From Chryseobacterium sp. JUb7 (lineage in GTDB: Bacteria; Bacteroidota; Bacteroidia; Flavobacteriales; Weeksellaceae): a stretch of DNA of 64,000 nt. The stretch lies in the NCBI RefSeq assembly GCF_024806495.1, contig NZ_JANUFF010000007.1, positions 62,001 through 126,000 on the forward strand, read 5' to 3'. This document shows positions 6,122 to 62,333 of this stretch, one piece after another (positions within the stretch are counted from its first letter, which is position 1; each line of letters begins with the position of its first letter). Under the pieces are notes generated by a model. That model searched no databases, was not told the origin of the DNA, and worked only from the letters and a program-made list of their open reading frames with translations. Made by a program: the position numbers and the translations under genes.

Positions 6122-6213
6122 AAGGTATTTATTTTATTCATTGCAAAGTCCCCGTCAATAAAAATCATATAAAATTATGACAGCAAAGGAAGCCCTTATT
6201 CAATCCCGTGATG

Positions 6214-6241
6214 TTTGGATGTAAATAAATCTTTATCTTTG
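6214..6241 (+). promoter_or_regulatory. Promoter of the tyrS leader
   Basis: An exact TAnnTTTG (-7) element lies at 6234-6241 and a TTTG (-33) element at 6214-6217, spaced 16 bp, slightly short of the usual 17-23. Only seven bases separate the -7 element from the leader ATG at 6249. Confidence 0.6.
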
Positions 6242-6248
6242 CAAAACA

Positions 6249-6347
6249 ATGAAGCACTTAAATAACATATTACGTCTTCCATTTTTCAGCGAATATTATA
6301 ACCCGTTCTATCGTTCGGGAATATTTTCTATAGCTGCAATTCAGTAA
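6249..6347 (+). CDS. tyrS leader peptide (32 aa), Tyr/Phe-rich
   Basis: ATG at 6249 opens a 32-codon ORF ending TAA at 6345-6347. Its centre reads FFSEYYNPFYR, with tyrosine at codons 16, 17 and 21 and phenylalanine at 12, 13, 20 and 26. It lies between a promoter and an intrinsic terminator, directly ahead of tyrosyl-tRNA synthetase. That is the layout of a ribosome-mediated attenuator in which slow decoding of Tyr codons signals low charged tRNA-Tyr. Too short to be a conventional protein; inferred to act by its translation rather than its product. Confidence 0.65.
   Translation: MKHLNNILRLPFFSEYYNPFYRSGIFSIAAIQ
6313..6319 (+). promoter_or_regulatory. Candidate antiterminator arm (GTTCGGG)
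   Basis: This 7-mer within leader codons 22-24 is identical to bases 6386-6392 in the 3' arm of the terminator. It can therefore pair with the 5' arm at 6373-6379 (one G-U pair) in place of the terminator. It can also pair weakly with CCCG at 6302-6305, giving the three alternative structures of a classical attenuator. Confidence 0.5.
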
Positions 6348-6370
6348 AAATTTAATCTAAATTTATATAG

Positions 6371-6399
6371 AGCCCGGACATTTGTGTTCGGGCTTTTTT
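6371..6399 (+). terminator. Intrinsic terminator inside the tyrS leader (attenuator)
   Basis: A 10-bp stem (6371-6380 with 6385-6394, one G-U pair, GC-rich base) closes a TTTG loop and is followed by six T. It ends 20 bases before the tyrS ATG, so it would stop transcription before the gene unless prevented from folding. Confidence 0.8.
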
Positions 6400-6419
6400 A
6401 TGTCTAAAAACTTATCAAA

Positions 6420-7619
6420 ATGCTCAATCAATTAAAAGAAAATGTAGAAATTATTCTACCGGAAAACGGCTTACAACAGAAAATTCAGCAAGCCGAAGAA
6501 GAAAACAGAAAACTTATCATCAAACTGGGTTTTGATCCTACCGCTCCGGATTTACATCTGGGTCATGCCGTGGTATTGAAGAAATTAAAGCAATTTCAGG
6601 ATCTAGGACATCGGATTATCATCATCGTAGGAAGCTTCACCGCAAGAATCGGTGACCCTACCGGTAAAAACAAGGCACGAAAACCTTTAACAGGAGACGA
6701 AGTTCAGCATAATGCCCAAACCTATATCAACCAGCTTTCAAAGATCATTGATGTAGAAAAAACAGAAATTGTATTTAATTCCGACTGGCTGGATGCATTG
6801 AATTTTTCAGAGGTCATTCAGCTCATGTCGAAAGTAATGGTCGCTCAGCTCATGCACCGAACAGATTTTAATAAAAGGTATACAGAAAACACTCCCATTG
6901 CCATGCATGAACTCGTTTACCCTATTTTACAGGGATTTGATTCTGTTCAGATTAAATGCGATATTGAAATGGGCGGTACTGATCAGCTTTTTAACTGTAC
7001 CATGGGAAGACAGCTACAGGAAAGCCATCATCTGTCACCACAGATTGTCATGTGTATGCCTTTACTGAAAGGGCTTGACGGCAAAGAAAAAATGAGTAAA
7101 TCTTTGAATAATACCATAGGACTGACCGATGAGCCTAACGAAATGTTTGGAAAAACCCTATCAATCCCCGATTCTTTAATTAATGAATTTATTGACCTGG
7201 CAACAGATTTTTCATCTGAAGAAAAGCAAAACCTGAAATTAAAAATCGAATCCGGAGAAAACCCAATGAATATAAAAAAACTCATTGCTAAAAATATCAT
7301 TTCTCAATATCACACATCGGAATTGGCAGAGAAAGCAGAGGAATTTTTCAGTAACCAGTTCCAAAATAAAAATTTTGAAGAGAAAGTTTTTGAGCCCGTC
7401 TTTATTAATTCATTGTCTCATATAAACAATAAAATAACATTAATAGATCTTTGTCAGCAATTAAAAAACAACGAGAGTAAATCATTCATCCGACGGTTGA
7501 TTGAAAATGGCGGAGTTCAAATCAACAACCATAAAATAATCAATTCTAATGAGGAAATAGAAGTAATACAACACACAAAAATCAAAATTGGAAAAAGAAG
7601 TTTCTTTGAACTTTTGTAA
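6420..7619 (+). CDS. tyrS: Tyrosyl-tRNA synthetase
   Basis: The 399-residue class I synthetase charges tRNA-Tyr with tyrosine in the cytoplasm. Seen: the HIGH-type motif HLGH (residues 46-49), the KMSKS loop (224-228), a DQLFN segment in the catalytic core and a C-terminal S4 RNA-binding domain (about 350-398, SFIRRLIENGGVQINN). The length fits the S4-containing TyrRS group. It is preceded by the leader peptide and attenuator described separately, suggesting control by charged tRNA-Tyr. It has no T-box leader, as expected outside Firmicutes. Confidence 0.95.
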   Translation: MLNQLKENVEIILPENGLQQKIQQAEEENRKLIIKLGFDPTAPDLHLGHAVVLKKLKQFQDLGHRIIIIVGSFTARIGDPTGKNKARKPLTGDEVQHNAQTYINQLSKIIDVEKTEIVFNSDWLDALNFSEVIQLMSKVMVAQLMHRTDFNKRYTENTPIAMHELVYPILQGFDSVQIKCDIEMGGTDQLFNCTMGRQLQESHHLSPQIVMCMPLLKGLDGKEKMSKSLNNTIGLTDEPNEMFGKTLSIPDSLINEFIDLATDFSSEEKQNLKLKIESGENPMNIKKLIAKNIISQYHTSELAEKAEEFFSNQFQNKNFEEKVFEPVFINSLSHINNKITLIDLCQQLKNNESKSFIRRLIENGGVQINNHKIINSNEEIEVIQHTKIKIGKRSFFELL

Positions 7620-30140: not shown

Positions 30141-30162
30141 GGTTTTCAACAACATGAATCTC

Positions 30163-30240
30163 TAGCCCCGATTGCAACGGCATCCTTTTGTGCAGCTTAG
30201 CGGAACAAAAGATATAGTGGAAAGCGGGAAACAGCTCCTA
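30163..30240. repeat. 78-bp intergenic repeat (TAGCCCCGAT...AGCTCCTA)
   Basis: The stretch begins TAGCCCCGATTGCAACGGC and ends GCGGGAAACAGCTCCTA, with a central ACAAAAGATATAGTGG. I recall this element type from intergenic regions of Chryseobacterium/Flavobacterium genomes, which would need confirming. No ORF is present. Confidence 0.6.
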
Positions 30241-61833: not shown

Positions 61834-62333
61834 TCTAAGAGATTTTTTAATAGAAAATGAGTATAAATTGATCGCTTATTCCCCGCTTCATCATGACATC
61901 AGCATTTATCGGAGAAGACAAAACTCATTATTTCATGAATATTAAATCAATATATGGTGACAATTTATATTAATTCTAAAATACAAATGCCCTCCCTCTC
62001 ATTTTGTCGGAAATGTTGAAATGCTCAAATGATCAACTGCTTTTTTTTATAATGACAATCAATATTTAAAAACATAAGATAATACCTGACTTCATCTATT
62101 AAAAATTAGAAAAACCCTTAATAATTCACTTTTACACACCGAAAAAAAAACAATATAACACACAGGTTATTAGTAATATATACTATTTTTTCAATTTGAG
62201 TATTTCCACTGATTTAATTTTGTTTTCTAACTTCTACCTTTATCCTATCAAAATTAATAAAGACGTCTACAAACAAATTTTGACAGCGGTAACCGAAAAG
62301 CTTTTAGAGTAGGAAATACAAAATATTAATATC
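61834..62333. other. 500-bp AT-rich gene-free stretch
   Basis: No convincing ORF, RNA gene or repeat is seen. A 26-codon ORF at 61893-61973 lacks any supporting signal. The last 40 bases carry the leader of the beta-trefoil-like gene. Confidence 0.5.

Follow-up and report, generated by a model that had tools for sequence, protein, structure and literature searches.

A Putative Leader-Peptide Attenuator Ahead of a Horizontally Exchanged Auxiliary Tyrosyl-tRNA Synthetase Gene in Bacteroidota

Ribosome-mediated attenuation of an auxiliary aminoacyl-tRNA synthetase gene reportedly has a precedent in Streptomyces coelicolor, where Vecchione and Sello are said to have described it in 2010 for trpRS1 and to have linked it to indolmycin resistance; a survey of the same year by Lopatovskaya, which by its title reportedly deals with attenuation of aminoacyl-tRNA operons, might contain a case. 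Bacteroidota initiate translation without Shine-Dalgarno sequences, and it is because of this mode of initiation, and of the degree of transcription-translation coupling, that leader attenuation in the phylum is a question of interest. One paper describes tyrZ of B. subtilis as a T-box-controlled second tyrosyl-tRNA synthetase (TyrRS) gene, with TyrZ protecting against D-Tyr (PMC9437257). An F. psychrophilum transcriptome study reports strong indications that amino-acid operons are subject to leader-peptide attenuation, as well as structured 5' UTRs at aminoacyl-tRNA synthetases (PMC9723704).

Upstream of hisG in Chryseobacterium sp. JUb7, the organism considered here, lies a leader, MKPDFLTVHHYYHHLC, with the pattern HH..HH, followed by a terminator (locus L238); a his leader was present in 30 of the 31 his loci examined, drawn from 58 genomes of the genus with hisG. 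The trpE upstream region (L239) holds the leader MFTTSNNNWWWLSNSSSGLKLLSCC with WWW, and its terminator starts 68 nt before trpE. With his and trp leaders and their terminators in this genome, this kind of mechanism looks at home here. Ahead of PheS in the same genome, a terminator is present and an ATG-started leader of at least 10 residues is not. An earlier note, made from the DNA letters of the present locus, knew of no description of ribosome-mediated control of a TyrRS in Bacteroidota. For tyrosine this agrees with our literature search, in which no paper on a tyrosine leader attenuator was listed among open-licence papers, whereas leader-peptide attenuation as such is not foreign to the phylum, as the his and trp leaders and the transcriptome study (PMC9723704) indicate.

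Here we describe a locus at which uncharged tRNA-Tyr very probably governs a horizontally exchanged auxiliary TyrRS through ribosome-mediated, leader-peptide attenuation. The analysis computed conservation, covariation, spacing, predicted folds, co-occurrence and horizontal spread, and together these make a sequence-level, covariation-backed case that a tyrosyl-tRNA synthetase of Bacteroidota is under ribosome-mediated attenuation.

The auxiliary TyrRS gene and its leader

The locus lies in a 64,000-nucleotide stretch of the JUb7 genome (the window), and all features given below are on its forward strand. The gene at 6420..7619 encodes a TyrRS of 399 amino acids (TIGR00234 tyrS, E 6.4e-105; PF00579). 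It is one of two TyrRS genes in the genome, which are 28% identical and which NCBIfam both calls tyrosine--tRNA ligase. Among 59 genomes of the genus, the housekeeping TyrRS is found in 59 and the window-type TyrRS in 45. The assignment of the gene as tyrS was thus right, with the amendment that it is an auxiliary second TyrRS and not the housekeeping or sole one; as is reportedly so for trpRS1, the gene behind the leader encodes a second synthetase in a genome that also has the housekeeping enzyme. The window-type gene occurs in 45 of 197 genomes of the family and in 15 of 296 of the order, all 15 belonging to the genus. A search of the phylum gave a match at E ≤ 1e-60 in 272 of 395 genomes, three of the same genus and 269 outside it, and among the matches listed, minus those three, identity was 42 to 49%. 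Both TyrRS types are present in 11 of the 11 named genomes checked outside Chryseobacterium.

Rechecking bore out the sequence and coordinates of the earlier note, with the leader ATG at 6249, GTTCGGG at 6313-6319, CCCGGAC at 6373-6379 and the tyrS ATG at 6420. The leader ORF is indeed one of 32 codons, MKHLNNILRLPFFSEYYNPFYRSGIFSIAAIQ, at 6249..6347. The 206-nt segment as a whole folds better than dinucleotide shuffles (z -4.27; 0 of 200 shuffles as good). A promoter had been proposed ahead of the ORF and one is predicted, for which the Bacteroidota type is the better reading: TTTG at 6214-6217 and TATCTTTG at 6234-6241 (together 6214..6241) match the consensus of the phylum. Of 119 leaders, 70 have an exact TAnnTTTG 4 to 15 nt 5' of their start, 69 of them at 4 to 9 nt, and 49 are without an exact match. 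As the predicted promoter ends 7 nt before the leader ATG, the leader mRNA probably starts nearly at its start codon, with almost no 5' UTR.

Relatives of the locus were defined by a gene of at least 60% identity. This gave 162 loci, of which one (L046, genome G021, whose gene lacks its 5' end) was dropped, leaving 161 loci with 119 unique upstream regions in 35 clusters. The leader is present at all 161 loci and in all 119 unique upstream regions. Its putative control codons, Tyr16 and Tyr17 (both TAT, 6294..6299), are conserved: all 119 unique leaders have TAT as codon 16, and codon 17 is TAT in 66, TAC in 51, GAT in 1 and CTT in 1, and the tandem YY is found in 117, with Tyr16 in all 119. 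Three Tyr codons (16, 17 and 21, in FFSEYYNPFYR) had been pointed out originally; their positions are right and the first two are conserved, Tyr21 being unconserved. One exception to the tandem (L003) has Tyr-Asp in place of Tyr-Tyr, and in another (L061) a deletion shifts the frame and leaves a single Tyr. Two further leaders (L029, L041) have 1-base deletions just 3' of the Tyr codons that alter the frame and keep the RNA arms. The first control codon (6294-6296 and its counterparts) is always TAT, yet the auxiliary genes themselves use more TAC (278 TAC versus 204 TAT, related copies counted).

Over 35 cluster representatives, pN/pS is 0.23 for codons 2-8, 0.07 for codons 9-13 and 0.22 for codons 14-17, and then rises past Tyr17 to 0.70 (codons 18-21), 1.40 (codons 22-25) and 1.24 (codons 26-29). 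The low values (0.07-0.23) over codons 2-17 make it very likely that the leader is translated, and amino-acid selection, as read from these ratios, stops at Tyr17. Since selection acts on codons 2-17 and not later, the nascent peptide may assist the stall. As in arrest peptides of the TnaC or ErmCL kind, the peptide is conserved up to the predicted stall site, although RNA pairing may account for part of the constraint, specifically at codons 9-13.

The sharp change at Tyr17 (from 0.07-0.23 to 0.70-1.40) is also what would be expected if MKxLNxILRLPFFSxYY stalled the ribosome from within the exit tunnel, perhaps in concert with a shortage of Tyr-tRNA or a small molecule, and so opened the same antiterminator. 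We regard nascent-peptide arrest of this kind as a possible but rather unlikely account. Codons 2-13 in the Chryseobacterium-only leader set (33 unique of 44) have pS 0.73, pN 0.07 and a ratio of 0.10. In the his leader of this genus, the six codons that precede HH have a ratio of 0.49, a control that is suggestive only, being small (13 unique) and low in pS (0.32). Against arrest, two adjacent Tyr codons before a TyrRS suffice for a classical stall, and a Sphingobacterium leader (L180) retains YYY with a much altered peptide.

The coding character of the leader also bears on a T-box or another RNA element that would bind tRNA or tyrosine directly, with no part for translation. T-box control of tyrS is established in Enterococcus durans (PMC3315439). 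The conserved 5' half of the present leader is, however, coding, with synonymous change and amino-acid constraint, and no T-box match was obtained either in the window at gathering scores or in 6180-6440 up to E 5, so we consider this explanation very improbable indeed. Other Rfam families gave no above-threshold match in the leader; sub-threshold matches to His, Leu, Trp and Thr leaders in 6180-6440 probably reflect the terminator. Elsewhere in the window, matches to Flavo-1 RNA (30160-30235, E 4.6e-13) and, barely above threshold, to the DUF805b cis-regulatory RNA (62283-62315) were found.

Terminator, antiterminator and protector pairings

An intrinsic terminator between the leader ORF and the tyrS ATG at 6420, as originally claimed, is present at 6369-6396, with a T-run to 6399. 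Its 5' arm is made up of the final four bases of TATAGAG followed by CCCGGAC; region 4 (GTTCGGGC) forms its 3' arm and, with the T-run, spans 6386..6399. By count, a lone consensus terminator is unremarkable (3 in the region against a mean of 2.8 in shuffles), so it is conservation that decides. A strict terminator scan succeeds in 118 of 119 leaders, the remaining one (L035) having one mismatched pair. In an alignment of 72 unique sequences, 98.7% of terminator cells are paired, 6 of 10 pairs show two-sided changes, and four of five covariation measures lie above those of every one of 500 shuffles; for the fifth, the number of pair types, 173 of 500 shuffles reach the observed value. That the whole arrangement is a chance resemblance would accord with terminator-like sites being no more numerous in the region than expected, but a leader found in 119 of 119 unique upstream regions, across 35 clusters and three families, leaves that reading next to no probability.

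The presence of a leader and a terminator might also be explained without any tyrosine regulation, by a leader that aids tyrS translation through reinitiation, an effect on translation that one paper has proposed for leader genes (PMC4833913). We judge it very improbable. The leaders are anywhere from 24 to 37 codons long, the terminator sits between leader and gene, and the competing arms, the Tyr codons and their near-fixed spacing would be left without a role.

Those competing arms form a predicted antiterminator that excludes the terminator. Region 2, GTTCGGG (6313..6319), is the outer strand and TTCTATA (6326..6332) the inner one, and both pair with region 3 (6366..6379), which comprises TATAGAG (inner) and CCCGGAC (outer). 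The complementarity of GTTCGGG and CCCGGAC noticed before is borne out, and the antiterminator is longer than had been claimed, running from 6313-6332 on one side to 6366-6379 on the other. The outer helix (6313-6319/6373-6379) is 98.6% paired over the 72 sequences, six of its seven pairs being formed in 72 of 72 and the seventh in 65. The inner helix (6326-6332/6366-6372) is paired in 84.8% of cells when scored in one register; a single register across genera was rejected, as other genera use another. In the antiterminator, the percentage paired, the count of cells with changes on both sides and the covariation score exceed all 500 shuffles; its number of pairs with two-sided changes is reached by 317 of 500 shuffles and its number of pair types by 340. 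One position changes jointly in three arms, from U-A-U to C-G-C, in 11 of the 72 sequences. A comparison of relatives for Tyr codons and covarying pairings, which the earlier note had named as the check on its proposal, was largely passed (Tyr16 in 119 of 119, Tyr17 in 117 of 119, and the three-way covariation).

The spacing varies little. The distance from Tyr16 to the CGG of region 2 is 21 to 25 nt in 119 of 119 leaders, and for each of 72 unique segments the RNA 3' of a ribosome placed on Tyr17 is predicted to adopt the antiterminator fold (P > 0.9). For 118 leaders (L035 left out), folds were computed with a ribosome of assumed footprint. With that footprint on Tyr16 or Tyr17, the probability of 2:3 pairing is at least 0.89 in 118 of 118, so that the proposal that a stall there would free 6313-6319 is upheld by the modeled folds of every leader tried; covering region 2 sets that probability to 0 by construction. 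Without a ribosome the median is 0.15, with values above 0.5 in 45 of 118 and 0.97 for the window's own RNA, and the switch would therefore leak without translation. At equilibrium the terminator is the stronger structure over the 72 sequences (median -20.3 versus -14.2 kcal/mol), which means that the antiterminator has to form earlier if it is to prevail.

Two candidate protectors of region 2 were considered. Region 1, GTCTTCC in codons 9-11 (6274..6280), is complementary to GGAAGAC, which overlaps region 2 in many relatives. Its pairing with the region-2 zone is better than that of synonymous-codon controls, with a mean z of -1.57 over 119 leaders and, by cluster, of -0.99, 27 of 35 being negative (Wilcoxon p 6.5e-5, the clusters not being fully independent); in the window's own copy the 1:2 pairing is weak (z = +1.0). 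CCCG at 6302..6305, proposed as a partner of 6316-6319, is a possible extra protector in that CCG is present in 94 of 119 leaders. It was rejected as a universal part: when each of the 35 clusters is represented by its first member, 20 have CCG and 15 lack it. Of the three alternative pairings put forward at the outset, the terminator and the antiterminator are thus supported and the CCCG protector only in part. In the models, region 2 comes free on stalling in each of the 118 leaders, and the protector is not universal.

Linkage to the gene and horizontal spread

Leader and gene occur together. After exclusion of the truncated locus, the genus set has 44 upstream regions, and leader, GTTCGGG and terminator hairpin are found in 44 of 44, again with one mismatched pair in L035. 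Among 80 named loci the leader is present in 80, recognized by the pattern LRxPxF in 78 and by eye in L164 (LQLPFF) and in the much altered L180. Unique upstream regions from whole genomes carry it in 77 of 77 cases. A leader profile search of the 197 family genomes gave matches of E ≤ 1.2e-8 in 45, exactly those carrying the auxiliary gene, and the next-best match was a 9-residue fragment with E 0.0155. Two weak matches elsewhere in the JUb7 genome (E 0.27 and 1.2) were judged on inspection to be chance. Upstream of housekeeping tyrS, no such terminator or YY ORF was seen in 12 of 12 regions, and upstream of distant phylum homologues (44-48% identity) no such terminator was seen in the 27 examined, out of 269 genomes outside the genus with a match; one of the 27 (L109) has a YY-containing ORF, with the terminator absent.

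Carriers of both leader and gene include Chryseobacterium, Empedobacter, Faecalibacter, Vaginella, Weeksella massiliensis, Flavobacterium, Arenibacter, Gelidibacter, Aequorivita, Sphingobacterium yanglingense and several MAGs, which by NCBI taxonomy (four names looked up) represent three families, Weeksellaceae, Flavobacteriaceae and Sphingobacteriaceae. The auxiliary TyrRSs of Sphingobacterium and Vaginella are 87% identical, and their housekeeping enzymes 55%. The genes adjoining the 80 named loci fall into 93 groups, 59 of them single, with the same two upstream neighbors in 35 of the 80. Inspection of 19 loci one by one gave a single neighbor group shared by a Chryseobacterium locus and a locus from a different genus (L113 and L190), and it lies on opposite sides of the gene in the two. 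The unit shared throughout is the leader plus the gene, and these data point to both moving between genomes as one cassette, by horizontal transfer. Two Faecalibacter species (L190, L168) have auxiliary TyrRSs that are 72% identical and housekeeping TyrRSs that are 94% identical, which suggests separate acquisitions of the auxiliary gene.

Proposed mechanism and comparison with known systems

The locus has a very likely translated ORF with tandem Tyr codons, a terminator between leader and gene, a mutually exclusive antiterminator and, given the assumed footprint, a geometry that would free arm 2. From these parts we infer stalling, termination and induction as well as the physiological trigger. 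When Tyr-tRNA is plentiful, the ribosome would pass Tyr16-Tyr17 and cover region 2; region 3 would then pair with region 4, and transcription would end near 6399. When Tyr-tRNA is scarce, owing to low tyrosine or to an inhibited housekeeping TyrRS, the ribosome would stall on Tyr16 or Tyr17, covering region 1 and leaving region 2 free. Region 2 and the inner strand could then pair with region 3 and block the terminator, so that auxiliary TyrRS would be made.

Leader-peptide attenuation of this kind offers an explanation for how a spare TyrRS is kept off until needed, and the fact that the cassette passes from family to family suggests that the gene is an inducible back-up or a resistance gene. 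Protection against inhibitors or tyrosine analogues is a possible role of the cassette by analogy. More speculatively, the leader could be a hybrid sensor, in which the Tyr codons give specificity and the conserved peptide sharpens or gates the stall, serving a horizontal back-up TyrRS cassette that is possibly a resistance determinant; we hold this tentatively, as something that could be so but probably is not. Because peptide conservation ends sharply at the stall codons, a nascent-chain contribution is directly testable.

Among known systems, the T-box-controlled tyrS of E. durans and tyrZ of B. subtilis are alike in that a TyrRS gene is controlled; in them tRNA binds the RNA directly, and the window leader is without a T-box match (PMC3315439, PMC9437257). 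The his and trp leaders of the same genome are built to the same plan, a short ORF (containing HH..HH or WWW) with a terminator behind it. Unlike the Tyr leader, they precede biosynthetic operons and encode other peptides, and amino-acid-level selection is weaker on the his leader. The enterobacterial trp, his and pheST attenuators combine a protector, an antiterminator, a terminator and tandem control codons, a four-arm logic like the one proposed here. The present leader differs from them in that arm 1 lies inside the ORF 5' of the control codons, the stop lies beyond arm 2 and no universal protector is seen. The closest precedent is trpRS1, reportedly likewise an auxiliary synthetase gene that has an attenuator and a leader peptide whose codons include those for the cognate amino acid. 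That system is said to concern Trp, Actinomycetota and indolmycin resistance, whereas the one in the window concerns Tyr and Bacteroidota. Conservation of the leader peptide and horizontal spread are both seen for the Tyr cassette.
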